A stretch of 64,000 bases of DNA. Source: Paramacrobiotus metropolitanus (lineage: Eukaryota > Tardigrada > Eutardigrada > Parachela > Macrobiotidae). The notes below the pieces were generated by a model. That model was not told where the DNA came from, ran no database searches, and was given only the letters and a program-made list of their open reading frames with translations. The DNA is taken from contig NW_026570299.1 of the NCBI RefSeq assembly GCF_019649055.1, forward strand, positions 434,001 to 498,000, written 5' to 3'. Shown one piece after another: positions 10,247 to 64,000 of this stretch. The translations under genes and the position numbers were made by a program. Positions within the stretch are counted from its first letter, which is position 1; every line of letters begins with the position of its first letter.

Positions 10247-10259
10247 TATTCGCAAAAAT

Positions 10260-11440: not shown

Positions 11441-11450
11441 TTTTACAATC

Positions 11451-28785: not shown

Positions 28786-28799
28786 GTTATGTTATGGTT

Positions 28800-30300: not shown

Positions 30301-30334
30301 AATTTTCCTAATGTGTAAGGAAACGTGTTTTATA

Positions 30335-36230: not shown

Positions 36231-36239
36231 TCGGTCGGG

Positions 36240-38030: not shown

Positions 38031-38035
38031 CAAAT

Positions 38036-42176: not shown

Positions 42177-43754
42177 ATGGCTCATAATGCGACTAATGAA
42201 ACTTTTACCGGCATCCCTAGCGGCATCGTCTGGACCGTGCCGGCATTAACGCGCTGCAGTATGTGCGTAATCCAGACGCTCCTTAATTCGGCCATGATCA
42301 TCGCGTTCATCGTTCGCCGGGAACTCCGTACCTCCTTCACCATTTACTTGATGTTCCTCTTCTGTGCCAACATCATCTATGCCCTGGGCGAGTACCCACT
42401 GGAGGTGCTGCGCCAAGGTTTCCCAGGACGCTGGTTTCTGTCGCACGCCGCCTGCTCATTCTACATATACCAAGTCTGGGTGTTCTGTCCGGTGGCCATG
42501 CACATGCACGTTCTGATCACGCTGAACCGTCTCTGGGCGATCTCGTTCCCGGTTTCATACAAGAATATCCATTCCGAGAAGGTGGCGGTGTTGATGTGCG
42601 CGGGGATGATTGTGTACGTCCATCTGGTGTGTTTGCCGTTAGTGGTGCTGGATCTACTGTACTATCATTTGCCGGAAGAGCGCGCTGGGTGCTTGTTGAA
42701 TACTGTAGCGCAGAGTACATATACAACAGTGGTCGCCATTGTCAGCACGGATGTACCCATTGTGGTGGTGGTTGGAGCGTATCCGTTTCTGTGGTACAAA
42801 CACTTGAAGAGAAAAAAGATCGGCACAGCAAAACCGTCGCGGATGGAAATAACTCACGCTGCGGGTGCTGCAACCGGCGTTGTATCGGTTATCGAAGTAA
42901 GTGGTGTTCAGTTGTGCGCTGTTATTTTCTAAAGCTGACCTAACTTTAATTCCGAAACTTTACTGGAAAAATTTATTACTGTAATGACACAGGTTTAAGG
43001 AACGTAGGGGAGGCGTGGTCAGCGCACCCGGACCCGACGGTCTCTTTGATCTTCAAAGGGGCCGACGACTCGTGTGCGCTGCCCGGCCCCTGGAGCGTTC
43101 CTTAAACCTGTGTCATTACAGTAGTTGTAGACTATAGTACTACAATACAAAAAGTACGTAGCATGTTGACTAGCATCTGTTTTCACGTTGCAAGACTGAT
43201 ATTAGGTGGGAAAATTAATTATTTGGTTTGAAATTCCCCTTGATGATTTATCTCACCATCAGCTGAGTACTTTTAAGTAAATGCTGAACGGAGAATTTTA
43301 TTTACCGTTATTAGCCATCAGATGCCGCAAGATTATCAAGCTACTCGTATTTTTGAGGGATTCATTAGCTAATGCAGCAATCCATTATGTTTACCCGACT
43401 TTAACTGTATCGAATGTTTTGCAGACCAAGTCGGCATTTAAGAGAATCGAAGCGTCATCCTCGCGTCCTTTTGTCGTGTTGACACTTTTGACAGTCAGCG
43501 TGCTGGTGTGCTGGACGCCGGATCAGACGTCGTGGACCATCGCTTGTTTCACGGCCGTCAACGATTCTCCTGGTCTGCGTTACACAACCAGCGTCCTGTT
43601 TACCCTGCAAGCAGCACTCGATCCTATTCTGTTCGCCCTTTCCCTCAGAACCTTCCGGAAGATGTTGTCACGGCTCATCTGCTGCTGTAAAAGAGGAGGA
43701 AACGATTCGCGGCATGGGCTGAAAATGAGTTTGACGCAAAGAGATGAACAATAA
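42177..43754 (+). CDS. Two-exon rhodopsin-type GPCR, unit 1
   Basis: Exon 1 42177-42896 and exon 2 43425-43754, phase 0 (GAA|GTAAGT; TTTTGCAG), about 349 residues. Motifs as in the clade: VRRELRTSFTIYLMFLFCAN, LITLNRLWAISFPVSYK, VPIVVVVGAYPFLWYKH, then RPFVVLTLLTVSVLVCWTP and LQAALDPILFALSL. N-terminus NATN gives a glycosylation site. Very close to the receptor at 46459, with which it shares upstream DNA, intron site and a downstream X gene, so the two arose by tandem duplication. The intron carries a 147-bp MITE that the other copy lacks. No lesions. Confidence 0.88.
42977..43123. mobile_element. 147-bp MITE, 28-bp perfect inverted ends
   Basis: Begins TACTGTAATGACACAGG and ends with its exact complement CCTGTGTCATTACAGTA; the perfect arm is 28 bp. 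Inside, CAGCGCAC and GTGCGCTG pair again, so the whole element can fold on itself. It lies in the intron of the unit 1 receptor and is absent from the intron of the unit 2 copy. TA at both ends fits a TA target site. Confidence 0.85.
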
Positions 43755-44380: not shown

Positions 44381-46160
44381 ATGGATTTCCTGTGGGTTAC
44401 GATGCTGCTTTTTGTATTCTTAATCTCACCGATCGTTGATGGATTCAGTTATACGAGTACAGCGAAGCGTGCAATTGTACAAAGTAGTTAATCTTGGGAC
44501 TATCAATAACCAGAGTAATGCTGGCCATGCAGTATGTAGATTTAGGCTAAGAATGTCGCACTGCGCAGCGGATAATCTAACTGAACTGTTCCATTGCAGT
44601 AACCGGAAGTACAGGAACGAAAATATTTATACCGGAAACCGTGGCTAATATTACCGATGCCTGTGCCGTTACGGTGAAGGCCCGCGCAGCCAGTTGCGTA
44701 GAACACAAGAACAACGAATACGCCATCAACATCAAGTACGAACAGGCGCAGATTTTACACTACGTAGCTGCAGCAGTTTTTTCCTAATTTTTTCGATGCG
44801 TAATTTTTTATGGCTACGACCATATACTGCCGAGCACGCCTTTAGTTGCATTAGTTCACCTTAATCTTGACCAGTATTCACAATGGATTTATTCTATGTA
44901 TTTGAGGTTCGTATTGGACAATGTATTACAAGAATATCAGTTAACAAAAACCATAACACCATTTCCGTTCCGCTAAAAGAAAGGCAAAGTACACATCTTC
45001 CTACTCTACCCTGTCGCTGAATGTACCGAGAACCGAAACTGCATTTCCTTGAATCTCAATACCAATTCTTTGGTGTAAAAACTCTCCTGAGCGGGGGTTG
45101 CCTGTACTGTCGATAATCTTTCTCGACAGCTCTTTGAAGAATTTCTTCGTCAGTGGTCCGAACGTGCCCGTAGTTTCGAACGCCAGCGGTTGAACGATAT
45201 AACGATCTGCCAGCCCGCTATACTTTTCTAACTTCCGATTTTCGCGTATTTCCGCTGCACTTCCCGGCACCCTTGACGTCTGGGCGATGTACGTTTGGGC
45301 AAATGTGTCCACCACGGTTACATCCCTCACTAGCGGCTTTCCATTTTTCCAAGGGAATGTTGTCACTCCGGCGGGCCGCTTTCCGTCGTATCTGCCTAAA
45401 CCCGCCGGCTCAAGTGACGATGGCACTTTTGCCGAACTCAATGCGCGCTTCGTTGATTCGATCGTTCAAGACAGCGTGGCCGTGTCTTCCTTTCGCTAAC
45501 TTGCATACCAGTCCGTGGAGATCTTGACCAGAACGTACGTAACTGTATTCTGGAAGCATTCATTAAAAAAAATCTTAATTATAAAATTTAATAAACTCTT
45601 AATATCTTAATTATAAAATTAAATATCTTAACTATTAAATTAAAATAATTAATAATAAACTCCAAAATTAGTGGTAATATCATTATATTTTGTATTATTT
45701 TGATAGCTTGTTTTTTAAAAATAATTTTGTAATTCAGCGACGCATAGTACTTTAAAAGCATGTCGGATTCTTTAGTACGTCTCTTCTGAGCGCCTTTTTA
45801 TTTCCCGCTGGAGAGTTTGGTTTACCCCACGAAGGCCACGATGCAGAGATGAGCACCTACGACGGCAAAACAAGCAGCTGGAAAACGTTGGAAAAAGCTG
45901 GAGCGGTGCTCAACTGTTGCAGAATATCAATCCCTGGATTACTATACGTTCCGCTTGAGGCCGTAAATATCGACATGAGGTATGAAGTACGAAGTAGGAT
46001 AAACGATAACCTCAGCGGCATGTATCTGTTCACAGATTGCGGTGGGGAACGCAACACGTGGCGTCGTGCACTCATGGGATTCGTTAGCAACGAGCGCAGC
46101 TGTGATACGCTGGATGACCGGGTCAACTGTCTCCAAGTATCGGTGGGTTCCATGAGCTGA
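44381..46160 (+). pseudogene. X1: decayed CUB-like receptor paralogue
   Basis: Exon 1 (44381-44456) has an intact signal peptide (MDFLWVTMLLFVFLISPIVDG) and a phase 1 donor. Exon 2 (from about 44542 to 44735) aligns codon for codon with X2 but has two TAA stops. Exon 3 (about 45830) keeps MSTYDGKTSS then loses frame in the tryptophan region. Exon 4 (about 46040-46134) keeps NTWRRALMGFVSNE and LDDRVNC, then is cut off where the upstream DNA of the next receptor begins. No exon 5. A fragment of an R2-type endonuclease lies in its second intron on the other strand. Clearly dead; its relatives X2-X6 follow downstream. Confidence 0.8.
45001..45441 (-). pseudogene. Fragment of an R2-type retrotransposon (endonuclease end)
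   Basis: About 145 residues matching the C-terminal end of the element at 33828-36230: KRPAGVTTFPWKNGKPLVRD aligned with KRPDG..VVWD, then NPRSGEFLHQRIGIEIQGN aligned with EPRSTAFLRQRLSLAVVRGN and a shared VLGTF end. The catalytic aspartate of KRPDG is alanine here, so the nuclease would be inactive. It is clearly a different family from the 33.8-kb element. Typical 5'-truncated non-LTR insertion, in an intron of X1. Confidence 0.8.
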
Positions 46161-46458
46161 ATGGAATTCAGAGATACAGCCACTTTGGGGGATCAGAAGT
46201 GAGTACACAGGACGCAGAAAACCGGATTCTGTGTTCTAAATTATGCACGGTGCCGGTTCAGAAAGGGATGTAAAAATCGATCACGTCTTCAAGCGACGTT
46301 TAAAGGGCTATTACAGCATATAGCAATTGTTATTACAGCCGTTTCTCTCTGACAACTACAGCCGCTTATTTCTTATTTTATTTCTTATTTCTGACTTTGA
46401 ATCTGCAGTACTAATTATAATACAAATATTAGAGTAGGGAAAATAATTAAATATAGTC
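46156..46458. repeat. Duplicated upstream region of GPCR (unit 2)
   Basis: Second copy of the 41876-42176 block. Its left edge falls inside exon 4 of X1, so the duplication junction truncated X1. Confidence 0.75.
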
Positions 46459-47880
46459 ATGATGGCTTATAATGCGACGAACCAAAGTTTTACCGGCAGC
46501 CCTAACGGCTTTGACTGGACCGTGCCGGCGTTAACGCGCTGCAGTATGTGCGTAATCCAGACGCTCCTTAACGCAGCTATGATCGTCGCTTTCATTGTCC
46601 GTCGCGAACTGCGCACCTCCTTTACCATCTACCTAATGTTCCTCTTCTGCGCCAACATCATCTACGCCCTCGGCGGCTACCCGCTAGAAGTGCTGCGCCA
46701 GGGTTTTCCGAATCGCTGGTTCCTGTCGCATGCCGCCTGCGCCTTCTACATCTACCAGGTGTGGGTGTTCTGTCCGGTAGCGATGCACTTGCACGTCTTA
46801 ATCACACTGAACCGTCTCTGGGCCATCTCCTTCCCGGTCTCATACAAGAACATCCATTCCGAGAAAGTGGCGGTGTTGATATGCGCGGGAACTTTCGTCT
46901 ACGTCCATCTGGTATGTCTGCCGTTAGTGGTGCTGGATCTAAAGTACCACCATTTATCGGACGAGCGTTATGGGTGCATGTTGAACACCGCTGCCCAGAA
47001 CGTCTACACGACAGTGGTCGCCATTGTCAGCACGGATGTGCCCATTGTGGTGGTGGTCGGAGCGTATCCGTTTCTGTGGTACAAACACTTGAAGCGGAAA
47101 AAGATCGGCACAGCAAAACCGTCGCGGGTGGAAGTACACCAGACTGTGGGTGCTGCAACCGGCGTTGTATCAGCTATCGAAGTGAGTGGTGTTGATATGA
47201 GCGTTCAGTACCGCTATAGCGGTACCTGCCGTTTTTATATTTAGCTAAACTTTGTTCCGGAAACGCATTTGGGTAATTTATTAATAGCTATAGTTTTACA
47301 ATACGGTGGGGGTTGTTTGTGCTTTAAGAATGACTGTTAACGAAAAATAAAGTAATAAATTTTGAACTTCATCTTGCTGATAACTAATTAATAACTGAAT
47401 AAATATTCAACAAAATGTTTTGCTACACGTTAATTGTTATTCGCCACCAAATACTGCGAGATTCTGAAATTAAGATCGTCTCTACTGGCTTATGAAGATG
47501 TCCCCTTTTTTCAGCCGCCTGCAGTTGTACCGAATGTTTTGAAGCGCAAGTCGGCGTTCAGGAGAATCGAAGCGTCATCCGCGCGTCCGTTTGTCGTGCT
47601 GACACTGTTGACAGTTAGCGTGTTGGTGTGCTGGACGCCGGATCAGGTAATGTGGACCATGAGTTGCTTCAATGCCGCCAACGATGCCCCCGGTCTGCGT
47701 TACACAACCAGTGTCCTCTTTACTCTGCAAGCAGCACTCGATCCTATTCTGTTCGCCCTTTCCCTCAGGACTTTTCGGAAGATGTTGTCACGGCTGATCT
47801 GCTGCTGCAAAAGAGGAGTAAACGAACAGCCACGTGGGGTGAAAACAGTGATCAGTTTGACGCAAAGAGATGAACAATAA
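46459..47880 (+). CDS. Two-exon rhodopsin-type GPCR, unit 2
   Basis: Exon 1 46459-47181 and exon 2 47545-47880, phase 0 (GAA|GTGAGT donor; acceptor TTTTGAAG, where unit 1 has TTTTGCAG), about 352 residues. Two ATGs in a row open the frame (MMAYNATN). TM motifs are those of the clade: VRRELRTSFTIYLMFLFCAN, LITLNRLWAISFPVSYK, VPIVVVVGAYPFLWYKH, RPFVVLTLLTVSVLVCWTP, LDPILFALSL. The intron of 363 bp lacks the MITE of unit 1. It is followed 800 bp downstream by X2, as the unit 1 receptor is by X1. Appears intact. Confidence 0.88.
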
Positions 47881-48680
47881 TGATATATTTTTACGGGAAA
47901 TGGAACTTTGCCCAATGTTAACTGACCGCTGTTGGAAAATTTGCTTATGTCGGATTGTTTATCAGCGATCTACATGTAAATTAGCGATCCACATATTTTC
48001 ATGTTGTCATCAACCTTTTCATTACTGTCAGCATGGCGCGGTAAATCGTTTTTATTATACTTGAATGTACGCTAGCGAAGTAACGAAATGATCATTGGAA
48101 AGTTTTATCTACAAATTTTATTTACTTGTTCAATGTTAAAAATTTAATTGCTGTTACGTTATGTTTTAATAGCGACAGTATTTTATAAATAATTTAGAAA
48201 AAAAGCAGAACATTAACAAATGCGACGGGTCTGTAAATAGCTGTTCGGATAATAGCGTATTCTTTTGTGAAAAATATACCGGATCAACCTATGTTTTGGT
48301 CGGCGGTAATTAAAAAATGCTTTTATAAATGAACGGTACTGCTGTGATGTAAGGGCGATCTACATTCATCGGTATCAACTGGTTAAAACGCCGTACACGG
48401 ACTGCTGATAACGACGTTCACGACTTAGGCATGCAAGCATTCATTAACAGTCAAACCGTTATCAGGAAGCATTAATTAAAGGCATCATGGATAACCGATA
48501 AAGCTGAGTTTTGATTACCAGTGACTGAGAATTCTGAAATTGCTCACCTGTTGGATAACCGCGCAAGAAAGTGTCATAGCTCTTTTGCTATCAATATTAG
48601 GAAACCATCTTCTCCCAGTTCTCTGCAAATTAGCTCTGAGCATGCTAATATTCGAATCCATTTGCATAATTTTTTAGACT

Positions 48681-50457
48681 ATGGATACACGATGGGTCAC
48701 GGTCCAAGTTTTTGTATTCCTCTTCTCGTCATTCGCTGATGGATTCAATTATACGACGAAGAGTGCGTGCAGTTGTACAAAGTAGTTAATCTTGGGACTA
48801 TCAATATCTAATACTTGCCATAATAAAAAGCAGCAGGGTAAAAGTAAGATAGTAAAAACGCTGCACTGGATGTTATGTAGATTTGCACGACGAATGTCAC
48901 ACTGCGGAGCGGATAATCTATCTGAACTGTCCCACATCGGTAACCGGAAGTGCAGGGACGATAATATTTAAACCAGAAACGGTGGCTAATATTGCTGATG
49001 GCTGTGCTGTGACGGTGAAAGCCAGGGAAGGCTGCACGGGAGACAAGAACGACGAATACGCCATCTACATCAATATCAAGTACGCGTGATCGCAGCGCAT
49101 AGTCAACATTTAAAAAAATTCTGATCATAAACTCCACGTGCAAGAATTATAATATTTTATCTGTTGTTTTTAAAGCTTTTTATTACAAATGGTATTTCTA
49201 ATTCCAGAACAGCATTTTAAGGTAATATCAGTCAAGTATTTTTAAAAGATATTTAAAGCACAGCAAAATATTCAAAATAATGGCGAATTCTTTACCTGAT
49301 TGCTTATAGCTTCTCGTTTCAATATTTTTCAGAGCGTCGCATCTACCCCATGATTCAGAAATGAGTATTTACGACGTCAAAGAAAGCAGCCCGAAAACGT
49401 TAGAAAAACGCTGGAGCGGCGCTCCATTAGGGCAGAATATTAACCCGACTTCCGTAGGACAGACACTGTCCTTCTGGGCCCGAGAACCAGCCCTCTCCGT
49501 GGAGTATGCACACAACCAGCTGTCAGTCAATGCCTCGCACCAAGTCATCCTGGATTATGTTATCGTGGAGCGTAAGTGTCGGCGTTTGAAGTATGCAGTA
49601 TGATAACCATGCATTAACCGATAACCACGACGGCGGCATGTATGTGCTCACAGATTACGGCGGGGACCACAACACGTGGTGTCATGCACTGATGGGATAC
49701 GTCAGCAACGAGTACATCTGCGATACGCAGGATGACCGGGTCAGCTGTCCCTCCCGGTATACCCATTCTGTTAACAATATGGAACCGGCGACAGATCGAC
49801 AATCTTGCAGTAAGCATTTCGGCAGAATTACTCGTTAATAATTAATAAAAAAACGGGAAAACTGAAACCGACGGAGACTTTTGAAGATTTATTCCACTTA
49901 AAATATATTATACAGGATTGATTACGCTTAAATATGTTACACATCGGCTCACATTTAAAAATATAAGGACGAAATGTTAATATCATTCTATCTTAGAATA
50001 AGTTAAAAAATTTGTTTTTCGACTCCAGTGCAATCAGCGTGCTATTTATCAAAAAATAATTTCTCTTACGGGAATTGCGTTAAATTTTAGTAATCGCATT
50101 TTCATATTTCTCTGTTTTCTGTTGTTTTTGTATTTCTATGTTTCTTGTTTTTATTGAATGAATTTTAAATTGGAAATTTAAAATTATTTTATTAAAATAT
50201 GGAAGCCAGCCAAGCCTATAAATTCTCGAAGCCAGTGTAGGCAGTTAATAGGGGCTTTTGTCAATTTTTCAGCTGCCGGACTGACCGGAGGAGAAATTGC
50301 CGGCATCGTCATTGGCTCAGTCATTGGTGTGGCGATTCTTGCCGGCATTGCAGTGGCATGCGTCAAGAAAAGCCGCAAACGGACAATCAAGTCGAATCGA
50401 AAACCACGGTGTCTTTTACGAATAATGCGCATTCTTCTGGAAGTCGTGTCACGGTAA
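48681..50457 (+). CDS. X2: CUB-like single-pass receptor with divergent tail
   Basis: Five exons: 48681-48762, 48881-49079, 49333-49571, 49654-49809, 50273-50457, with intron phases 1, 2, 1, 1; 286 residues. Signal peptide MDTRWVTVQVFVFLFSSFADG. CUB-like part: YLNCPTSVTGSAGTIIF, EYAIYINIK, MSIYDV, LSVEYAHN, VILDYVIVE. Cysteine module: CHALMGYVSNEYICDTQDDR, with cysteines at the family positions except the last pair (SC instead of CC). Exon 5 encodes a glycine-rich helix (EIAGIVIGSVIGVAILAGIAVA) and a basic tail (KKSRKRTIK), with none of the cysteines of the X3/X5/X6 tail. It is shorter in exon 2 than X3-X5. It lies in a GPCR + X unit with the 46459 receptor. Family not recognised. Confidence 0.8.
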
Positions 50458-50469
50458 ATCCTTGATCTG

Positions 50470-51640
50470 GATTTACCCTTATGCTGCAGATCTTTCAAAT
50501 AACTTCCTTACACATTGTGACAGTAGTGTAGGTGGATACCGATGCGCAGTTGTAATTGTGTAATAATCTGTATCCAAATTTTATTATCTGAATTTCGGCA
50601 TTTTCACGGGTGAAGATTTTCATACGTTTCTTCGTTTTATACGTTTTTATACGTTTCTTCGTTAAAGAGGTGGTTGTTTGCTCAAAATAACAGAATACGA
50701 GAATAACAGAAAGCTCAAAATAACAGAATGCAGAATACGAGTATACAAAAGTTTAGTAAAACTTCAGCATCTAATACTACATACTCTAGTATTTTGCAAC
50801 AGTGCTGGCGCATTGAACAAGTTCAGGGAATTTTGCCAACAAATGCATCATGTAACATACATCGTTAAAGAAATAACTGTATAATAACAAAGAAATAAAG
50901 ATTATAATTCCACATGTACCGTAGAAGGAGGATGCTCGACCGTGCATGTTCATGTACTGATGTAGTGTAGTATGTACATGTTTCCTGTTACAAAACTCGC
51001 CTGTAATTCGTATTCTGATAGATGCCGTGAAATTCTAGAAAACCGAAAACAGGAAAACAAAATTTTTTTTAAAAAAATTATCCTTTAAGTTTTAAACTAC
51101 TCTGGTTTCGCACAACCCTTATATTTCTCATCCGCGGTCAGGTAAAAGTGATTTCCTATTTACACGACTGATATAATGTTGTGCTGCAAGATGTGCAAGT
51201 TTTAATTTTTTAAGTATGCAAGTTACAGTTTTTCACCTGTACATCCTACGCAGTATACACGATAAACCAACGCACATTCTACACGTGTACAGTATTATAA
51301 CGATAAATGTAAAGTACGCATGTACCGAGCATGTATGACAGTACCAGCCGGGAAAATGCCGGTACTTATAACCAGTAGTCACAGCGACAGGCGCTGAGCC
51401 GGTTTCCGGCGGCTGTTATGAAACGTATGCATGTACATATAGCACAGCACATATCGCATGTACACCATTCAGCCATCGCAATAAAAAGTTGCATCCAGTG
51501 CAGACGAGGTAACTGATGAGGTCGATCTAGATGTTGATGTTGCTTCCCGTTGGAGGAGCAGAGCAGAGAACCAATGGCAGTGAGCAACGTGGCTTTATCA
51601 GTGCGCAAGCTATCTTGATCTTTACATTGCAATTTGCAAC
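50470..51640. other. Intergenic, no gene seen
   Basis: AT-rich spacer between X2 and X3. Nothing coding is supported. The last part (51480-51640) resembles 54830-54960 upstream of X4 (GTTGCTTCCCGT, ACCAATGGCAGTGA). Confidence 0.5.
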
Positions 51641-51650
51641 AACTACACGT

Positions 51651-51685
51651 GTAATCTCGTTTATTTTGGCTCATTATGCAAGCAC
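51651..51685 (+). promoter_or_regulatory. Conserved upstream element of X3
   Basis: TCTCGTTTATTTTGGCTCAT lies about 215 bp before the X3 start codon. Matching elements stand before X4 (54961-54997) and X5 (58763-58798), each followed within 40 bp by a CGAGA-type word and GTAA. It is the best conserved non-coding stretch between the genes, so a shared promoter element or 5' exon is likely. Confidence 0.55.
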
Positions 51686-51869
51686 ATCAAACGAGAATGT
51701 ATGTATTACATCAGTTTGCTAATAACTTATGTCTGCACTAGAGCATAACCATGAATTACCTTGATCTGGGATCTGGGTGCTCTTATATATTCCATGTATC
51801 GGGAAATATGGTGCAGACATTCTCGCAAGTTAAGGAGACTTTTTCCGACACCAACCAAGTTATCCCAAC

Positions 51870-53191
51870 ATGACGTTTTCAAAATCTTATCACATTTTTT
51901 TCGTTTTATATGCGTTAAGCACTGCATTTAGTGGAATCACTGCTGTGCCGTACCAAGATTACAGTAAGTGCGACATGCGATACAGTTTGACTGTTACCAA
52001 TCGAGGCACTTCCGTTTAGCTGTGCGGACATGCGACGAGAAAGTATTCCTGGATTGCCCGACCGCGGGTTCCGGAAGTGCCGGACGAATAACGTTCTATC
52101 CACATATTACCGTTAACTCCACGCCGAATAATTTCCCGTACAACAATTACGGTTATACGGATCACTGCGATCCGTCCAGTTCGTGCAAGCTGACGGTACT
52201 GATCGACGACCATTGCGCCAGCCTGATGGCCCAAGGTGACGAGTATGCCCTCTACTTAAACCTTAGGTACGAACTACGAACACAAACCACTTTACCAAAT
52301 GCAGCCGTTGTATTGTGAAGGAATGTCCAACAGGTCCATCGATATTCCGGCGTTTTCCAGTCTGGAGATCTACGATGCGGTCCACCATGGTGACCCCGTG
52401 CTGCGGCGTTCCTGGGATGGGCAACGCGGTTGGCAGAATAAGAATCCAACGTCCTTCGCCCAGTTCCGTTCGCAGTCTATGGAACGTCTCAATGTGTTCA
52501 TCGAGTACCGTCATGGCGGGCTGTGTCGTACAACGCGCGAAGTTGTATTTGATTTTGTGATAGTCGAAGGTGAGGTGCAGTTTACAGATACATTGCTACA
52601 TTTATTTTTAAGTCACAATCCGTTTATCTTTAGCAAAGCACACTGTGAACAACACCTACTGCTACGCTCTGAATGGCTACGTCAATAACAAGTATATTTG
52701 CGACACGACGGATGATCGTGTGAATTGCCCGACAATCCTGTCAGATACGACGAAAGCTATGGAACCGGCGTACGCGCGACAGTTTTGCTGTAAGCAACAT
52801 TTACAACGTTAGTCCAAAATTAAATCGGTCTTAAGTATAGGTTCTTTTGTCGTCGAAGGAAGCGCGCTGGCAACTGCAGCATGGCGAACCTAAACAACAA
52901 TTAAATGATTGTTATTTCGCTGTTTAATTTATAGGGCCGAGTTACTGGGTGATGGGCGGAATTGTTGTAGCAGCGGTTGCTGCCGTGGCCCTACTGGTCG
53001 CAATGGTGGCGCTGTGTCGTCGTCGCTGTCGCAAATGTTCATGTAGCTGTCGTCCGCGAAAGATTTGCAGCTGGTCCAGTCAGCGGCAGTGCGATGTCTG
53101 GAGCCCGTACTGTACTTGCGCTATCAAGTATGATATCCAGTGTGATACCGGGACTGATGAACGACTTCTTGCCAAGAAGAACCGATTCTGA
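51870..53191 (+). CDS. X3: CUB-like single-pass receptor with cysteine-rich tail
   Basis: Five exons: 51870-51963, 52020-52266, 52334-52569, 52634-52789, 52935-53191, phases 1, 2, 1, 1; 329 residues. Signal peptide, then VPYQDY at the first splice. CUB-like domain from RTCDEKVFLDCPTAGSGSAG through CKLTVLI, SLEIYDA, VFIEYRHGGLCR to VVFDFVIVE. Cysteine module: NNTYCYALNGYVNNKYICDT, DDRVNCP, ARQFCC. Membrane helix GGIVVAAVAAVALLVAMVAL. The cytoplasmic side starts CRRRCRKCSCSCRPRKIC and ends WSPYCTCAIKYDIQCD, TDERLLAKKN. All splice junctions keep the frame. No known family is recognised; the fold of exons 2-3 resembles CUB. Likely a surface receptor or adhesion protein; ligand unknown. Confidence 0.85.
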
Positions 53192-53542
53192 AGACTAAGT
53201 TCTTATTAGATTGCAGCCCGCATCGGGCCTGCAGTTCAGCAACTGCAGAATCTGTTTGTTTTTTGACTTTTAATTATTGTTGTGTTTGTTATAACTTTAT
53301 TCCGTACAAAGCTTAAGATATAAATGGCATTCCATCTATTTTACACATTTTTCAATATCTGTTTGTTATTGCTGCTGCAGTTTAAATTAATACAGCACAT
53401 TGTGTTGCATCTAGCTGTACTCGCACTTTAAGTATGAATATTGCTAATTCTGCTGACCTTATAAAAGATATCCATGGTAGAACGTGCTTCAAGATCAGTT
53501 AGTAATGACAAATGTGCTGCCTGTCAAAAAGGCTTCCAAAAA

Positions 53543-53770
53543 ACGCTGTACCGCTTTGTAATGAGCGCAGTAATAACATCGTTTTGTAATAACATCGTTT
53601 ATTAATACGTAATTAATATTAGCGCAGTAATAACATCGTTTATTAATACGTTTCTGGTATGCTGCAAATTCGTGGTGGCAAGTACATAATATGTGCAAAT
53701 TCGTGGTGGCAGTGGCATTCGTGGTACCTGCAAATTCGTGGTGGCAAGTACATAATATGTGCAAGTGCGT
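53543..53770. repeat. Short tandem repeats downstream of X3
   Basis: Two repeat types: TAATAACATCGTTTATTAATACG (full or partial, three times in 53570-53652), and CAAATTCGTGGTGGCA (53664, 53696, 53731) alternating with AGTACATAATATGTG. The rest of 53200-54350 holds no gene and is rich in GTAC-containing words. Confidence 0.75.
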
Positions 53771-54357
53771 GGTTATTAACACTCTCACTAAGTTTCATTC
53801 GTGCTGCTGACACTCGCCTAATTGCCGGAAATGAGTGACAATTTTTGTTACAACAATACATACACTACAATAATAACATCGTACATACGTCATACACATG
53901 TTATTGTACGTCATGGTACATGGTCAAGTAAGTGTTGGGAACTTGGAAGCTTTATTTGCCGGAAATACAATGATAATAATTTTTACTAGCAACGATTATT
54001 ATTGTTATACAGATTGTTTTGTACGTAGCAATTATTATTTTCCAGATATGCTCTATGAAATTAGTGCAATAGACCCAGTACATATAGCCACGTACACATG
54101 CACACCTGCATGTGGGTATACATACTATGTGGCTGTGTTCTCTATAGAACATTGCCACATGCAGTATGTACACTGTACATCGTAGCGGCACGTGCAGTAG
54201 AATTACAGTACATATCGTTCTGTGCTACATGAACAGTATTGATCTATTAACGATAAACAGTTTTGAGCAATGTGCCGAATGCCGCTGATGTGGCTTACCA
54301 GTCAACGAGTTTCAAGCCGGTAAAACATAGAATGATGAAATCGCTATAACTTGCATA

Positions 54358-54788
54358 TACAATGTACGACAAAAAGAGGTTGAACCGATCAGTCGGTCCG
54401 CGGTTCAAAATAACCTCGCAACGACACGCCACCACTAAAACTTGGACGCTTACTCACTACTTTCAGACGCTCGCGCTCCGTGAATATCAAAGTGCAGCTA
54501 TACTAGTTGCATATCAAAAGGTGTAGAGAAAAATTTGAAACTTTTTGATACTAAACCTGTGGCTGTTTATGGCGAACAGCACAAATTCTAGCCATTTTGC
54601 TTTCTCGTGGGCACAGCATAGGATCTGTGCGCATAACCGTTTGGCTTGCAATCAATGCTTAAGTCTATGGAAAGCAAAATGGCTAGAATTTATCTTCCCA
54701 GTATATCAAATATTCAAAAAGTTGCGTGAGTGGCGTGTCAAGGTTTTGACCGACTGATCGGTTCAACCTCTTTTTGTCGTACATTGTA
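54358..54788. mobile_element. 431-bp nested foldback element
   Basis: Perfect inverted ends of about 41 bp, starting TACAATGTACGACAAAAAG and closing CTTTTTGTCGTACATTGTA. A second perfect palindromic pair inside (AAATTCTAGCCATTTTGC at 54585 with its complement near 54682) brackets a core resembling the core of the 14514-15190 element (CATAGGATCT, ATGCTTAAG). No coding capacity. It lies between X3 and X4. Confidence 0.85.
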
Positions 54789-54960
54789 CACCATCCAGTT
54801 ATCGCAGTGAAAAAGCTCTATCCACAAGACCATATGCTAACGAGGTACTTTCTTGTTGGTTAATCTTGATGCTGGTGTTGCTTCCCGTAGATGAAGAGCC
54901 GACACCCGAGGACCAATGGCAGTGAATTACGTGGCATTGCCAGTGAATCATTATAGTTGC

Positions 54961-54997
54961 AGCTACTCTTGTTTATTCTGTCCATTAACGAAGCACC
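54961..54997 (+). promoter_or_regulatory. Conserved upstream element of X4
   Basis: ACTCTTGTTTATTCTGTCCAT, about 306 bp before the X4 start, aligns with the elements before X3 and X5 and is followed by CGAGATTGTAATG as they are by similar words. Confidence 0.5.
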
Positions 54998-55272
54998 GTA
55001 GTCGAGATTGTAATGCGAATGTAACCACTGTATGTCGATGATCGTGTGGCTTGTGGTTGTTGCATCAGCTGTTCATTCCCGATCTACAAAAACGACGAAA
55101 GGAGTCGTAACCGTCTAGCTAAGTTCATACTCGGCCACGAAGATATGTTCCCAAATCATAGCTGGGATATTCGGAAACAGATACGCCTTACACCGACTAA
55201 CTGCATAATCGAGGCAGACAGTCGCAAACTAACTTATTCCAGAACTAATTTGCATCCTCCAAGCGGTCCACC

Positions 55273-56796
55273 ATGATTTTTGCTTTGCTGCTTTATCTTT
55301 TTTCATCAGCAGTATTAACTGGAATCGGCGCTTTGACGTACCAAGATTACAGTAAGTGTGTACGCGAAGACAACACCTGATTTATACATGATTGCATCCT
55401 TATTAGGGGTGGACATATGCAATGAAGTAGTTGAACTGGATTGTCCAACTACGGCATCCGGAAGTGCCGGCCGAATAACCTTTAGGCCGCATATTGCCAT
55501 CAGTGCGACGCCCGACAACTTCTACAATATTCCCGGCTATACTGAGCATTGCGAGCAATCCGGTCCTTGTAAGCTAACGGTCATGACCAACGGAAACTGT
55601 GGAAGTTTGGACGAAGGACATGCTGTCTATTTCAACGCTAGGTACCGTACAGCTCCTAGCGTAATTTCTATCACAAAAGTACGCGAATTTAGGGCGACAG
55701 GTACACTAAAAGGATTGTCACTGACTCCATACACTACGTCTACTGTATTTAGATTTAAGATATTTATAAAGGAGAAATGTGAATATTTTATTATTTGTAT
55801 CGATAGTTTAGAATTTAGAACGGTATTTGGCATGCATCAGCATTCAGCCGTGCCAAATGCATGTACAGCGTAAATAGTATGGTCACTATGGTTGGACGCG
55901 GTGTACTATGGTGTTTGGAGTGATGCTTGTCGCTGTGTTAATGGATAAGCAATTACGGGATAAGCTTGTACCTGTTCTATCATCATTTCTATGGAACATA
56001 TCATATTAACTTAGCTAACCGAGCAGCCATCGTGTAGGTCGCTTAATATTCCGGAAGGATCGCGTTTGGATATCTACGACAGGACCGACCACGGTGGTCC
56101 TAAATTGCGGCGTTCCTGGGATGCGTACCGCGCTGGGTGGTACCGCAATCTGCAGTCCGTCGCGCAGTTCCGCTCGCAGTTCACATACCGGGAGCGGCCG
56201 ACGATTTTCATTGAGTATCACCACGGAGCAGCGGCCTGTCGTGAGTCACGGGAAATCGTACTAGATTTCGTGATGGTCGAAGGTGAGTCGCAGTCCTTAT
56301 TCTGAAGTTTTTATAATTTGTAGTGTGTTCGTTTACAGAAAAACGCACGGTGAACAACACATACTGTACCGCTCTGAATGGTTACGTTAACAACGCGTAT
56401 ATCTGTGATACGACGGATGACCGTGTAAACTGTCCGCAGATTCTGTCGGATATGACGAGAAATATGCAACCAGCATGGAAGCGGCAGTTTTGCTGTAAGA
56501 GGAAATTTTACCCTGCTGATGTGTAGTCTGTGTCATGTACTGTACAGAGAATCTCTATATATGTATACATAATATTATGTGTTTACCGTAGATGGATACA
56601 GGTTTCTGTGTGTACAATAGTAGTATGTCTTTGTAACTGTCGCATTTACAACAAAAATATAGGCAAATTGGGATTTGTAGGGCCAAGTTTCTGGGTTATG
56701 AGTGGAATAATTATCGCAGCTGTCGCTGTTGTGGCTCTACTGGTCGCAATGGTGGCGCTGTGTCGCCGTCGCTGTCGGAAATATTCATGTAGGTGA
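55273..56796 (+). CDS. X4: CUB-like receptor lacking the cytoplasmic tail
   Basis: Five exons: 55273-55351, 55407-55641, 56038-56282, 56339-56494, 56681-56796, phases 1, 2, 1, 1; 276 residues. The ectodomain is complete: ELDCPTTASGSAGRITFRPH, SGPCKLTV, RLDIYDR, IFIEYHHGAAACRESR, VLDFVMVE, NNTYCTALNGYVNNAYICDT, RQFCC in the spliced form ending with tryptophan. The helix GIIIAAVAVVALLVAMVAL and CRRRCRKYSCR follow, then TGA at 56794-56796. Downstream the former tail is still readable (RPRKNCNW, WSPYCTCAIKYDI) and then loses frame by one base before the family's LLAKK. So the ectodomain is intact while the tail was lost recently: a decoy-like receptor or early pseudogene. Confidence 0.8.
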
Positions 56797-56949
56797 CGAC
56801 CTCGAAAGAATTGCAACTGGTCCAGTCAGCGACAATGTGATTTCTGGAGCCCGTACTGTACCTGCGCTATTAAGTACGATATTCGGTGTGATACCGGGAC
56901 TGATGAAAACTTCTTGCCAAGAAGAACCGCTTGTTCGAGGAATAAGTTT

Positions 56950-58750
56950 CTGTGCGCCGGTTATCGACTTTGTACCAGAATTTGTTTTCAGTTTACCAAT
57001 AGTTATTTACCTAGGCTCTCTGAAGCACACCACAGGCTAATTTGCTTCTTGGGCATTGTTTTCAAAATTTTGCAACTGTGCTGTTTTTCGACCGTAAAGC
57101 TGTAGAAACCGTTACGGTATACTGCAGCCAAAATACTGCACTACTGTCAACATAAATGTTCCGTGCTCCTCTATGTGCCAGCATACGGATTTTTTTAGAC
57201 GTTTTTCTTGTTTTTTCTAAATTAATATTCTGCTTGTTCTGGTTTTACATTTGCAATGCTCACTCCAAGTTGACGATGTCAATTTTGAAGTCGTACCAAC
57301 ATGTATCACCTAAAATGTCTATGTACAAGTACTCTGTTAATGTACACTGTACATGTATTCGTGAATTGCATACTAAAAAAAACCGTAAATGAACTATTAT
57401 TAGTACTGCTTTACTTAATTGTAATGTGTACGTTACGGTATTATTGAAATATATGATGTCGTGAGACTATGAATACTTACACAGTTACATTGATCGATTT
57501 TTCCAAGCTTAATTAATACGAGTTACGTATTTTTTTAAGACAGATACCAGCCATACGTATGGCTTGCGATATATATGGTAAGAATTAACTAAACGGTCGG
57601 ATGGGAGAAGTGAAAACGAAAAAAACTGTTTATGAATCGTTACTTTTTCATTAGTAATGAAGTAAATAACTACATAGGCTGCATAGTGCACATACATGGA
57701 TGCACATATGTACATACCTGCATACGTACTGCTTTGTGATGTTAATAATAAATATTATTAATTTTTTACTAAAATGTAACTAAATGTACATTAAATGATT
57801 GACGTACGTGTGTTCTTCGTACGTACGTACAATACTGTACGTATATGTACAATACAATACACAGTCGCTTCTCATGTACATTGGGACAAATTCTTCATTT
57901 GATTATAATTGTTAAGCGAAGCTCGCTTTGTACATATTGAGAAATAACGTCACTTATACACATGTATCTATATGCGTACGATCCCTTGATGAAGAAATCG
58001 AATTGTATCCATAAATGTAACGATATTATGAAGTACCGTAATTGCGCTGTGTATTCCGGTTCCGGATCTCAGAACACATAATTCAAAATCAGTTACGTTT
58101 CTTCTCGCACATTGCAGTTTTACAATTCATCAGTACTTGTATATTTATATACATAAGTGATAGATGTCTTACATAATCTTCAGTAGTTTACTAGATAGCA
58201 AGAACTGTAATAAATGGACGTTAATAATAATATTATCATGCAACATTTTATTTTCAAAAACAGCTTGCTCAAAAAACGAAAGTACAGATACAGTTAAAAC
58301 TGCAAAAGCAAAAACAACACTGTGTAAATTTAGTATACCACTAGTAGAAATATGATTACAATATTATTATTAATTTTCACTGTATGTACGATGCAATGTT
58401 GTTAAACAAAATGTTTTAGTCTGGATAACGTACTCTTGCGTTAACCGGAAATCGATGAAATGTTGTTCTCTAGTGGAATGATCGTGTTTGCATGCGGAGC
58501 AGCCGCTGAACGTTGCAGTGGTATGCTGCGACTGTTAAGTGTTAACCAGTCCTTCCGCATTGGAGAGACAGCACACATGTACATATTCCGATATCTCAAG
58601 CTGATGAGTTAATACTGTAATCATGTTCCTGAACCTGTTTCAATGCGTGACAGCGTAAGCTTATCAGCGACCCAACAGAAATCCACATCGCGGCTTGTAC
58701 TCAAATTTACTGTATCGAGTTTACCTTTCGACATTCCCAACAGCCAACAT
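56950..58750. other. Intergenic, no gene seen
   Basis: AT-rich spacer between X4 and X5, with many GTAC and GTACGTAC words around 57800-57860. No exon, RNA gene or inverted-repeat element supported. Confidence 0.5.
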
Positions 58751-58762
58751 GACTTTTATCGC

Positions 58763-58798
58763 CTGTAATCTTGTTTATTTTGACTCATAACTCGCTCG
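58763..58798 (+). promoter_or_regulatory. Conserved upstream element of X5
   Basis: TAATCTTGTTTATTTTGACT, about 243 bp before the X5 start, aligns with the elements before X3 and X4; AGCGAGAATTGTAAG follows. Confidence 0.55.
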
Positions 58799-59009
58799 AA
58801 CTAACTTGTAAGCGAGAATTGTAAGCCAGATATTCTGTCATTTCTTGCACCGTGATCCTAGCAAACGAGAGCGCAAAAACCGTAATCCATTCAGTTTTGT
58901 TTCAGTCGTTCCCGTTTGGTTGTTCATACATACTTGAAAACGAATTACCAACGACATACCAGCGGAACTGGTCTGGTACCGTAGAAAGGATTTGATACGA
59001 AACGATCTC

Positions 59010-61062
59010 ATGATGTCTGCATCCATCACTCCCTTTCTTTTTCTGTTGATTACTCTGATCTTGGGGATTGGAGTCCATGGTGTGCCATACAAGAATTACG
59101 GTAAGTCCAGATGTTAGTAATGCAACTACGTATGCAACAGAGATAAAACAGTAATTTTCTAAACGAGAACTGCGGGTTGTAGATATCCGCAGATGCGATG
59201 CAGTCGTCCTGCTGGATTGTCCTACCACTGCGACAGGGAGCGCGGGCCGCGTGACATTCTATCCCTACATTTCCATCAACACGTCGCGTGCCAAAACCGA
59301 TACTCGTTACAATTATTACGAATCGGATTATGGCGGAAACTGTGAGCAAACCGGTCCTTGCAAACTGAAAGTGCAAACAGTAAAAGAATGCGGAGATCCG
59401 CTTGGAAGTAACTATGCTATCTACTTCAACGTCAGGTACCATACGTTCTTTTGGTTGTCAACATCAGCAGTCGAGTAGGTGATACGACGAATTTAATTAT
59501 CTTAGAAATTTCGAGATTCCGCGATCATCGCGTCTGGAGATCTACGACGCCTCCGGACAGGGGGAGCCCGTGATGAAACGCGGCTGGAACGGAGGAGATG
59601 GCTGGCAGCATTACAATCCGACTTCCGTGGCGCAGGTGCGCTCTGACTACGCCCGCCAGCCGGCATTCTCCGTTGAGTACTACCATGGAAGGGCCCAGTG
59701 CCGTAGCGCGCGGAAGGTGGTCTTCGATTATGTGATCACTGAAGGTACTTCGGCGTTTTTCGCATTCCGCGCATTTTTGCAGTTAGATTTCGCGTATGTA
59801 TCGGACAACGGGTCACAGTATTTTCCGCGTTATTACACATTGAAAAACTTGATAGTTTATCGTGTATATTTATTAATCTCGTGTACAAGCTTGTATAAAA
59901 ACACTAATTATCACGTAATCAATTTTCGAAAAGTTTTTGGCATGTGGAGCTAAACGAAGAATACCGTGTCTCTTGTGTCCGGTATGAGAATTCACATAAT
60001 GAAAATGTCCGTGATGCGAAAAACATAGATGTGGTAAACAGCTTCCGGTCTCCCGCGTTATCATGGCAACTTGTGAATTTTTTATTGCAGCGCTGAGCAC
60101 GGTGAATAATACATACTGTACCGCTCTGGACGGTTATGTCAATAGCCAGTATATCTGCGATACAGCCGAAGATCGCGTTAACTGTCCGGCTTGGATATCC
60201 GACAGTATGAGTTCCTTGGAGCCGGCATATCAGCGACAGTACTGCTGTAAGTATAGATACTTCGCTTACTGCCTTATATGGGCTCCCCATGTATTACTCT
60301 CCCTTATCTGGGCTCCCGAGCAATATGAGCAACCCTCTACATCGGCGGTTACGTTATTACTCACAGTTTTGCAGCTGTTATCAGTGTTATGACTGAATGA
60401 AAATTTAGATTTATTTAAAATACTGTGAAAAAAAATAATGTGATATGAAATTTCGGCATTTTTTAGTTTGTTCATTGGCAAATCCAGTTGAAATTAATGA
60501 AAAATATATATAGATAATATAATTATATAAATATAATTCGGATGTGATATTTCGGAATTCTTTGGTGTGCTCACTTGTAAATCCGGTTGAAAGAAGTAGA
60601 AAAGGGTTCTGCTATAAATCCGATAAATAATTTGACGGGTATTGCTCACTAGCCGAGAGCCCAGATAAGGGAGAGTAATGTAAGGGGAGCCCATATAAGG
60701 CAGTAAGCGAAGTATTCATTTTGTAAGTATATTCATTTTTAGAACGGGTGTTTTACTCGCCTTTACACCTTCATGGGAAAACTTTTTTTCTCGTAGTGCC
60801 TAGTTATTGGATCATTGGCGGAATCGCGGCGGCCTCGGTGGTGGGTCTAGTGATCCTAATTGTGCTGTTAGGGCTGTGCCGTCGTCGCTGCCGAACGTGT
60901 GCCTGCGTGTGTCGTCCGCGGAAGATCTGCAACTGGAACAGCCAGCGAAACTGCAACTTCTGGAGTCCGTACTGTTCCTGCGCCATCAAATACGACATCC
61001 AGTGTGATACCGGAAGTGATGAGAGACTTCTTGCCAAGAAGAACGATTTGTTGGAGGATTGA
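59010..61062 (+). CDS. X5: CUB-like single-pass receptor with cysteine-rich tail
   Basis: Five exons: 59010-59100, 59183-59435, 59506-59744, 60091-60246, 60797-61062, phases 1, 2, 1, 1; 334 residues. Signal peptide (ITPFLFLLITLILGIGVHG), VPYKNY at the first splice. CUB-like domain: RCDAVVLLDCPTTATGSAG, TGPCKLKVQ, NYAIYFNVR, RLEIYDA, FSVEYYHGRAQCRSARK, FDYVITE. Cysteine module: NNTYCTALDGYVNSQYICDT, EDRVNCP, QRQYCC. Helix SVVGLVILIVLLGL. Tail: CRRRCRTCACVCRPRKICNW, FWSPYCSCAIKYDIQCDTG, DERLLAKKN. The fourth intron carries a 457-bp foldback element. All phases agree with X3, X4 and X6. Function unknown. Confidence 0.85.
60258..60714. mobile_element. 457-bp TA-bounded foldback in X5 intron 4
   Basis: Left end TACTTCGCTTACTGCC, right end GGCAGTAAGCGAAGTA. 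The arms continue inward for about 70 bp (CTTATATGGGCTCCCC, CTCCCTTATCTGGGCTC). The first eight bases are those of the 14514-15190 element, suggesting one family. No coding capacity. It lies about 12 bases past the exon 4 donor of X5. Confidence 0.85.
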
Positions 61063-61276
61063 TTGTGATGCAACAATTGCGGGTGAATCCATTAGTGATT
61101 TTTCTACCTGCAGAAATGCGCACTGGAGGTTCCTTTTATTGTTTTTAATTTCGTTTTTTTGCCTTTTTATTCGTCACTAAATTTTTAGCCTGCTTTTTCT
61201 CGGGGCAAGAAAAATAGCGTTAAATTAAGTTTTTCCGCATACCTTTAATAAATATCCTATTCCGGATACAAACTAA

Positions 61277-61984
61277 CCAGGGCACATTTTCCGGGTCCAA
61301 ATTCAGAAAAATCTGATCTTTGGCAGAAACATAGTATACCATCGTAGTATTTAAAAAAAATAATTTCAGCTACTGACACTCAAAGGGCGTAGGAACAAAA
61401 TTAATAAGTAAATAATACCAATGCACTAGCGCAATACCCGCACAGGCTTTCTATAAAATAACAGCATATCAGGAAAGTTTCACCTCTTGCAGAAACGTAG
61501 CATTTTGCCACATTATGGTTAATGAAAAATTTCATGCGAACGTTGAGACGACACAGTAGAAAAACCATTTTGTAGCTGCGATTCTTTGCGGTAGTGCAAC
61601 AGTACGTACTTACCACATACTGCCGCTGTATTTGGATTCCGGATTTTGCTAATTTCCTCACGGTGTGCAGTGTGCCCCCGGAACTTGTTAAATATTAAAG
61701 TTCATTAAGCGTGCTATAGTCGTACACTGTCAATCGGCAAAAGACGAGTTCCTGATTTATTATTATACACTGATACAAACAGCTGTTCGAGTACTACACT
61801 AGTGCAGTCACTGCAGTGCAATAGTATGTACTATTACAGTATTACTTACTTATTACTTTTGTTTGTCCACGCCCTTTGAGTGTCAGCAGCTGAAATTATT
61901 TTTGTTAATATACTACGATGGTATACTATGTTTCTGCCAAAGTTCAGATTTTTCTGAATTTGGACCCGGAAAATGTGCCCTGGT
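61277..61984. mobile_element. 708-bp foldback element downstream of X5
   Basis: Arms start ACCAGGGCACATTTTCCGGG and match inverted over 76 bp with one mismatch (61277-61352 with 61909-61984), then continue, with gaps, through GACACTCAAAGGGCG to about 130 bp. The interior holds no coding sequence of note. It lies 215 bp after the X5 stop codon. Confidence 0.85.
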
Positions 61985-61989
61985 AAGTA

Positions 61990-62765
61990 CCAATAAAAAA
62001 TTTATAACAGAAACACTTCCGCTTTGCTATCCTGGTCAGGGATTGTTCCCATTACCCATATTGCATTTCCACGTTGTATTTGGATAGATAGTCGCTGCTT
62101 AAAGAACTCTTTCGCCCGTTTCTGGCCGGTGGAAGCTGCCAGAAACGGTCGAAAGTTGTTCCTAAATTAAGTTGTTCAAAATTCAGATGTAGTGGATCTT
62201 ATTAGTCATTCTGCTTTGTTTTTGTTACCGAGCGTTTGTATAAAAATTTAAAACAGTACTTGTATCGGTTAATGTACAATACAGCGTGACACAGTAATTA
62301 TTCCCAATTTATTCTGCTAGTAACCAGTAACCACTATACCAAACCGTCGCTTGGGTCATTGCCGCCTTTTGTAGACAGTGCACATATATGATGATAAGCA
62401 TCTGGACTCTTCCAGTGCAAAGGTTTACCGAGCCGCTTTTGCAAGAGCTGTGCTTCTGTTTAATGAAGATAAATGCCGGTGTTAAAGTGGCGGTATGTTT
62501 GGACTGTCTGAGTTATAGGGTATCGAATACCGCTATATTAATTCTACAATACCGAGGTGTTTATGGACTCTGGTAACCACGTGGATGCGGTTCTTGAAAA
62601 TACTTCCTTGGCCCCGATCATATCTAACACCGTCGGTTAAAGCAGATGGTTGTATTATTTTGGTATTTTACAATAAAAGATATTCTTCTGATAGCTGCTT
62701 TACTTTGATTTATTCATTGCATAAAACTATACCACAATACTTGACTTGTATCCTCTCTACCGAAG
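61990..62765. other. Intergenic, no gene seen
   Basis: Spacer before X6. The upstream element of X3-X5 is not clearly present; a weaker TTTACTTTGATTTATTCATT lies near 62698. A short inverted pair around CGTTTCTGGCC / GGCCAGAAACG-like words occurs at 62110-62150. Confidence 0.4.
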
Positions 62766-62772
62766 CAACACA

Positions 62773-64000
62773 ATGATTTTCTATGCTCTATTATTAATGG
62801 TGCTGGTGGCATTCATCGACAGTTGTTGTGGTTCCATGTACAAAACGTATAGTAAGTGGGCGCCTACTTGATTTGTCTCTGACGAATTTACAGTAATTTC
62901 TGTTAGATTCCCGCAATCGCTGTGGTGATGTTATCCACCTTGACTGCCCGACAGTCTCCGCGGCCAGCGCCGGTCGTATCGAATTCCGACCGCAGTTAAC
63001 TGTCGTTAAGATGAGCGACAACCTTACCGATTACGGTTATGCCTACGATGTGTGTCACCAGCGGGAGGCGTGTAAACTGACCGTAAAAACAGCGCAAGCG
63101 TGCGGAAACACTGGAGATGAGTACGCCATATACTTCAGTCTGCGGTAATTCAGCCACTATCATCCCTCCCGCTTCTGTAAACGGTAAAACCAACGTTGTC
63201 TATTGACAGAACATTCGAGTTACCTCAAGGTTCGCGGTTAGAAATCTACGATATAACTAAGGACCAGAGCTTACTCAGATCGTGGAGCGTTAAACCGAAT
63301 TATTTTCCGGCTACAACCACTGTCAAGAGCGCTGTGCCGCCAGAAGTCATCGGTCAGCTGCTGTCGGATTTCACTCCCCAACCGGCCCTCTTTCTCGAAT
63401 ATTTGCACGGAACGGGAGCTTGTCGCGGTTCACGGAAGGTGGTCTTCGATTACATTATTGTTGAGAGTAAGCAATTTAGCATGTAATTCAACATTTTGAA
63501 ATACACTGTATCATGTTGTGTGTGAAGGCCAGAGTACGGGAAACAACACCTTGTGCAAAGCCTTGAGTGGCTACGTAAATAACGAGTACATCTGTGATAC
63601 CTCCGACGATCGGATTAACTGCCCGTTGCATTTATCGGAATCGACTGAAAATATGGAAGAAGTTTACAAGCGTCAGTACTGCGGTATGTTGCGATAAAAT
63701 TGTCTGAAAGTTTAGGTATGCGAAAGTAATGTTACAGCAGTATAAATCGGTACGAGTACACATTCAATAAAATTCTTCAAACTTTTTTGTTCAGCGCCGA
63801 CTGGATGGGTCATCGGTGGAATTACAACCGGCGCCGTCATCGCTGGCCTGGCGCTGATAGTCCTGGTAATCCTTTTGGTTGGCCACTGTCGCAGGCATCC
63901 CTGCACTTGCCGCCCTACAAAGTTTTGCACATGGTCCAGCGAACGCAAGTGTAATTTGTGGAGCCCGTATTGTTCGTGCCTGTTTCGCTACGAGATTCAG
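62773..64000 (+). CDS. X6: CUB-like single-pass receptor (runs off the window)
   Basis: Exons 62773-62851, 62907-63144, 63210-63466, 63528-63683 and 63795 to the end of the window, phases 1, 2, 1, 1; 312 codons seen, all in frame. Signal peptide MIFYALLLMVLVAFIDSCC. CUB-like domain: HLDCPTVSAASAGRIEFRP, ACKLTVKT, RLEIYDI, LFLEYLHGTGACRGSRK, VVFDYIIVE. Cysteine module: NNTLCKALSGYVNNEYICDT, DDRINCP, KRQYC then glycine (no second cysteine). Helix VIAGLALIVLVILLVG, then HCRRHPCTCRPTKFCTW, LWSPYCSCLFRYEIQ to the end of the window. It is the most diverged full-length member; the rest of the tail lies beyond the window. Confidence 0.83.

Follow-up and report, generated by a model that had tools for sequence, protein, structure and literature searches.

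The tardigrade Paramacrobiotus metropolitanus carries, at the right end of a 64,000-nucleotide (nt) stretch of contig NW_026570299.1 (C79:434001–498000 in an assembly of 169.8 Mb; hereafter the window), a row of genes, X1–X6, which a first-pass annotation had described as a tandem array of six paralogues of an unrecognized CUB-like transmembrane family. The assembly also contains trehalose-synthesis genes, in keeping with this species. The question raised by this locus is what kind of protein these genes encode and how far their family extends. We consider it probable, all parts taken together, that X1–X6 are part of a large, locally expanded and so far unnamed animal gene family whose products join a divergent CUB head to an exchangeable C-terminus. 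The expansion, the common exon structure and the differing C-termini are established at the level of sequence.

The array itself was confirmed, as the exon-4 module of X3 used as a query matched that of X4 at an expect value (E) of 1.2e-23, far above chance; the count of six paralogues, however, does not stand as given. By searching the whole genome of about 170 Mb with two exon-4-module queries and taking the union of their rows at E ≤0.001, 73 places were obtained, of which 35 lie within one 300-kb stretch of another contig (C91, 71.8–371.9 kb) and 16 on C79. X1–X6 form the left end of a run of 16 members over 98 kb (C79:480–578 kb), 15 of them at E ≤0.001 and one, at 554 kb, at about 0.005 only. 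A query with exon 3 gave 63 genome matches at E ≤1. Single-protein scans of prokaryote genomes and viral contigs found no relatives, which is unsurprising for an animal family. In the open-licence literature, a search for the CUB domain together with tardigrades gave no paper, the bare word CUB gave matches in which it may stem from journal identifiers, and among the matches listed for lineage-specific expansions in tardigrades no title concerned the X1–X6 family.

In the window (positions counted from its first letter), X3 and X5 are complete genes on the forward strand. The exons of X3 (51870–51963, 52020–52266, 52334–52569, 52634–52789 and 52935–53191) add up to 990 nt of open sequence and those of X5 (59010–59100, 59183–59435, 59506–59744, 60091–60246 and 60797–61062) to 1005 nt, in both cases whole codons including the stop. 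X6(+), with exons at 62773–62851, 62907–63144, 63210–63466, 63528–63683 and 63795–64000 onward, reaches its stop 60 bases past the window end. X4(+) (55273–55351, 55407–55641, 56038–56282, 56339–56494 and 56681–56796) runs for 276 codons to an in-frame TGA, roughly 12 residues past the membrane helix, with tail-like sequence beyond it. Checked base by base, each of X3–X6 comprises five exons, with GT–AG internal junctions and phases of 1, 2, 1 and 1. X2 (48681–50457(+)) starts with a signal peptide, followed by CUB-like exons at 48881–49079 and 49333–49571, a module exon at 49654–49809 and a last exon from 50273. The phase series claimed for X2–X6 thus holds for X3–X6 and for exons 2–4 of X2, with the exon-1 donor of X2 uncertain among three candidates of the right phase. 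The whole-codon sums claimed for X2–X5 hold for X3 and X5. X4 stops early, and the tail motif FTNNAHS of X2 lies in another frame.

X1 (44381–46163(+)) is a dead member: it keeps a signal-peptide start and remnants of exons 2 and 4, including blocks of 157 and 117 nt that are 82% and 85% identical to X2, and family-wide modelling of exons 2–4 found no open exon set in it. By this comparison, X1 is the wreck of an X2-like gene. The retroelement fragment inside it, at 45001–45465(−), is 40% identical to the C-terminal part of a reverse-transcriptase open reading frame (ORF) at 33828–36320(−), which is itself open over 830 residues.

Family-wide, 69 entries were modelled, comprising 66 of the 73 places, the weaker C13:1730546 and C79:554341, and one broken gene entered twice (C91:290082 and 290175); the other seven places (C91:165355, C130:320366, C56:645381, C31:986243, C9:587290, C56:638924 and C13:1779739) were left out. 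Exons 2, 3 and 4 were located by profile and frame-keeping splice sites with phases 2 and 1 imposed, so that phase constancy is not independent evidence here. The junction position was left free within about 100 bases, and the exon 3–4 junction was best or tied at one alignment position in 32/36 genes, while the exon 2–3 junction was top-ranked at the common position in 13/32 and among the kept candidates in 23/32. Introns were mostly short (≤152 bases in 30/46 and 38/46). Open exon 2–4 models were obtained for 46 of the 69 entries. The remaining 23, together with dead X1 and the damaged tails of X4 and X2, could suggest that most copies are decaying and lack a coherent present function; we regard this as highly improbable, because two thirds of the entries are open, some of the 23 only run off the fetched stretch, and the ratio of non-synonymous to synonymous substitution rates (dN/dS) stays under 1 in almost every pair listed.

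The nature of the head was evaluated on exons 2–3 (in X3, 52020–52569(+)) from an alignment of 22 members and a cysteine census in 46. For AlphaFold, X4 was translated straight through its in-frame intron, and the exons of X2, X3, X5 and X6 were aligned to it, which makes a shallow alignment. In the resulting model the exons form nine strands, and the predicted local distance difference test (pLDDT) values are 60–83 in the exon blocks, 48–49 in an insert specific to X3–X6 and 26–44 in the retained intron. When this model of low to medium confidence was compared with known structures by VIA-align, the top rows were the CUB domains of TMPRSS6 (Z 9.5) and meteorin (Z 9.3), with 105–111 residues aligned and 1.2–1.4 Z above the best non-CUB row (Z 8.1), and 21 of the 50 rows listed were CUB regions, judged by their titles or domain maps. 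The next rows, of complement C5 and C3 (Z 8.6–8.1), are presumably CUB regions too. By hhalign, the family profile was also compared with 18 CUB domains taken from this genome, CUB being the sole jelly-roll fold so compared. It scored 26.0 (22 members) and 25.5 (46 members), colinear with CUB and with an IYD motif on the CUB strand ending in the DG turn, against maxima of 20.0 and 21.1 for column-shuffled controls (200 each) and ≤14.9 for reversed profiles. The strand columns of the model are more conserved than its loops (entropy 1.75 versus 2.45; 0/5000 permutations), a loop-biased variation that is as in most folded domains. Since CUB tops the structure match and is favoured by the profile comparison, exons 2–3 are probably an unrecognized and very divergent CUB lineage, which we hold with moderate confidence and which gives the CUB-like domain proposed over these two exons moderate support.

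Several observations count against this assignment. The AlphaFold model contains an intron and has a low mean confidence (53; predicted template modelling score, pTM, 0.47); best rows at Z 7–8 are common among models that match nothing clearly, and many jelly-roll folds score at Z about 8. Foldseek alone gave nothing at E ≤0.001 for this model; its first row was a viral jelly roll, and its second and only high-probability row (0.92) was meprin beta, aligned to what is probably a non-CUB region. The probability that hhalign itself assigns is only 29–41%, and the Pfam CUB model PF00431 matched neither X3, X5 nor any of the 22 members at E ≤10. Exons 2–3 could instead be another jelly-roll beta sandwich (lectin-, MAM- or TRAF-like), CUB-like in outline only, which would leave the family unrelated to CUB; the failure of PF00431, the non-CUB jelly rolls at Z 8.1–8.0 and the two leading Foldseek rows all fit such a fold. 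We nevertheless judge it unlikely, as two CUB rows stand above the best non-CUB row, and the profile comparison, which is independent of the model and covered CUB alone among the jelly rolls, beats 400 shuffles for CUB and places the second CUB cysteine on a conserved family cysteine.

Under the divergent CUB assignment, the cysteines are rearranged. Canonical CUB domains have four conserved cysteines in a C1–C2 and C3–C4 arrangement. Exons 2–3 hold four family-wide cysteines, present in 45/46, 44/45, 43/46 and 43/46 members, the third of which aligns with CUB C2, but no cysteines are found at the C3–C4 positions. X3–X6 have in addition a private pair, one cysteine in the exon-2 insert, in a column that is theirs alone, and one in exon 3, in a column without cysteine in all 40 other members that have a residue there; this pair probably makes an extra disulfide.

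Other profile searches were consistent with the claim that the family is unrecognized. A whole-genome search with PF00431 gave 88 matches, none at the loci of the X1–X6 family; Pfam gave nothing convincing in the 22 members, and PDB sequence searches found no match for family members. Weak Pfam matches in the 22 members, namely Zn_ribbon_20 in two and NLRX1_C (E 0.0082), Caskin1-CID, APOBEC1 and ADGRF3_N in one each, were taken as chance. Membership in the nematode CUB-like family PF02408 was rejected, as this model matched neither the family loci nor any of the 22 members, and its one match in the rest of the genome was sub-threshold.

Downstream of the head, exon 4 (in X3, 52634–52789(+), GYVNNKYICDTTDDRVNCP) encodes a membrane-proximal module with an ICD-DRVNCP core and four cysteines, three invariant and the last nearly constant in the alignment of 22 members, which agrees with the conserved cysteine module noted before. 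AlphaFold of exon 4 alone was uninformative (mean pLDDT 44). A degenerate LDLa domain (PF00057) was considered and rejected: the exon-4 profile scored 11.4 and 10.6 by hhalign against 22 LDLa domains from the same genome, within the shuffled range (maxima 18.1 and 16.1), and it has only four conserved cysteines versus the six-cysteine LDLa pattern. Among the LDLa matches, identical scores were seen on two contig pairs (C31:765197 with C253:51482, and C23:652729 with C157:199267), a possible sign of haplotypes left uncollapsed or of contigs duplicated in the assembly.

Behind this module the products differ. Last-exon calls for the 69 entries gave a membrane helix in 43, a second domain in 11 and neither in 15; four of the 43 helix/tail calls look spurious (C79:480047, a G protein-coupled receptor (GPCR), C13:1408411, C13:1781752 and C27:613188), which detracts from the case for exchangeable ends. 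The single membrane helix per protein is supported for X2–X6. In X3–X6 the helix is followed by a Cys/Arg-rich tail (class-A end; X3 exon 5, 52935–53191(+)), and searching the genome with that of X3 gave only five places at E ≤0.001, X3–X6 themselves and a broken copy at C56:137583. Other membrane helices are often of a GGAIAGIVIG kind, with proline-rich tails in many cases; several C79 tails carry an FTNNAYSA-like motif, and PPxY occurs in 16 of the 43 called tails, compared with a mean of 2.2 and a maximum of 6 in 200 shuffles, with none in the tails of X2–X6. The last exon of X2 has the commoner type of helix (GGEIAGIVIG). In a quick ectodomain tree, X2 clusters with X3–X6 and two C91 members (Shimodaira–Hasegawa-like approximate likelihood-ratio test, SH-aLRT, 95). 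As X2 thus combines an ectodomain of the X3–X6 group with the usual helix, a gain of the Cys/Arg tail in the X3–X6 lineage is the simplest explanation, and the polarity by which X2 had been called the tail-swapped member is probably reversed.

In the 11 entries of the second class, the ectodomain is followed by a second domain without a membrane helix, and these members would be secreted forms. The second domain (NITCRLGRV...DNTLNCRVILHDLHSW...) belongs to a large family itself, with 109 genome matches at E ≤1 and 87 at E ≤0.001 (for example, C91:160587–160970(−)), and some ORFs, about 300 residues long, contain two copies of it in tandem. No Pfam match was found in the two copies scanned.

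Whether the array is fast-evolving, as had been claimed, depends on the measure. X3 and X4 are 57% identical over exons 2–3, 79% over exon 4 and 83% over the last exon (36 codons). By crude pairwise estimates, dN/dS over exons 2–4 was 0.13–0.22 in the measurable pairs among X3–X5, where synonymous divergence (dS) is at least 1.2 and near saturation; over exons 2–3 it was 0.17–0.58 in the 25 closest pairs (0.38–0.58 in the youngest C91 pairs), and exon 4 reached about 1 in two young C91 pairs. Taken together, the identities and ratios indicate that between X3 and X4 the head diverges fastest, under constraint that is purifying on average. The claim therefore stands for the greater divergence of the CUB-like exons between X3 and X4 and of the loops, but not for dN/dS, which is below 1 over exons 2–3 in the 25 closest pairs and the measurable X pairs. 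Gene-wide positive selection was looked for by pairwise dN/dS and not found; with ratios mostly below 1, adaptive evolution is not shown and there is no pointer to an arms race, a point against a role in recognition. The same ratios bear on the idea that these are surface and seminal proteins of gamete or mating interaction, comparable to the CUB spermadhesins. A spermadhesin (1spp_B, Z 7.8) is among the structural matches, the sexes of P. metropolitanus are separate according to PMC11191345, and a tandem array that yields both secreted and membrane-bound forms would fit; as dN/dS is mostly below 1, we think such a reproductive role improbable.

By inference from its architecture, the family most likely serves as a repertoire for recognition at the surface of an epithelium or of the body. 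The intact product would be a secretory protein with a divergent CUB head (exons 2–3), a stalk module with four cysteines (exon 4) and a C-terminus of exchangeable type, and where signal peptide, variable head and cysteine module are followed by a helix and basic juxtamembrane residues, it would be a type I surface protein. The head may bind ligands through its variable loops, and membrane forms may relay binding into the cell through their tails. PPxY tails could recruit WW-domain proteins, such as NEDD4-family ubiquitin ligases, leading to endocytosis or turnover, while the Cys/Arg tails of X3–X6 might be anchored to the membrane by acylated cysteines. Secreted second-domain forms would carry the same heads off the cell and act outside on the same kind of ligand. 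Tentatively, and with clearly less confidence than in the family itself, we suggest a tardigrade-lineage repertoire of recognition receptors, with about 70 copies, variable cryptic-CUB heads and at least three exchangeable C-termini, that tells microbes, food or mates apart. The family supplies concrete candidate genes for the poorly known immune and mate recognition of tardigrades. The family further suggests that a well-catalogued domain such as CUB can evade standard profiles in a fast-duplicating lineage, so that extracellular domains would be undercounted in genomes of this kind.

Compared with known systems, the CUB superfamily (PF00431; TMPRSS6, meteorin, spermadhesins, PCPE-1, neuropilins and NETO) supplies the best structural matches of the X-family model, a profile likeness that spans the core strands and aligns the second CUB cysteine, and the same extracellular position after a signal peptide. 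The X family differs in having no Pfam match, in the displacement of the canonical third and fourth cysteines with another pair conserved, and in a single domain per protein, which a phase-2 intron divides between two exons. NETO and LEV-10 are membrane proteins with CUB plus LDLa domains. Their architecture resembles that of the X family in a CUB head, a small cysteine module, one membrane helix and a cytoplasmic tail, and the structural matches include a Neto2 chain (Z 7.3); the X family, however, has one CUB, and its module is no better than shuffles against same-genome LDLa domains. Nematode CUB-like proteins (PF02408, CUB_2), which are secreted and pathogen-responsive in Caenorhabditis elegans according to PMC3527274, likewise present a CUB-resembling domain in several proteins of one ecdysozoan lineage, but their model finds no X-family loci and nothing above its cut-off in the genome. 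The PPxY members of the family are similar to WBP1L (PMC6991692) and Shisa (PMC10531659), single-pass proteins with a cysteine-containing outer part and a proline-rich tail of PPxY type, and WBP1L binds NEDD4-family ligases and is palmitoylated (PMC6991692). In contrast to these adaptors, the X family has a CUB-like head rather than a Shisa-type cysteine domain and about 70 copies, and only part of it has PPxY, for which WW binding is predicted. With the Pfam tests for CUB and CUB_2 and the profile test for LDLa all failing, the family is best described as a probable unrecognized CUB lineage that is strongly expanded locally and whose C-termini are modular.

A second tandem family, of rhodopsin-type GPCR paralogues, occupies the same region. 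ORFs at 27850–28791(−), 30302–31682(+), 42162–43754(+) and 46447–47880(+) were scanned and match 7tm_1 and the nematode Srx/Srsx chemoreceptor models; those at 7660–8199(−), 9713–10276(−), 11379–12668(+) and 38012–39365(+) were judged by eye from the ORF list. As the array adjoins these chemoreceptor-like paralogues and a further GPCR-like ORF follows its last member near C79:580 kb, X1–X6 might be accessory proteins of environmental sensing or digestion, kept beside the receptors by shared regulation. This GPCR neighbourhood is known for the C79 array, and neighbourhood alone is weak evidence; we rate the idea below even a reproductive role and prefer surface recognition.

At the left end of the window lie a papain-family cysteine protease exon at 3599–4093(−) and a match to the chitin-binding Peritrophin-A domain at 2698–3192(−).

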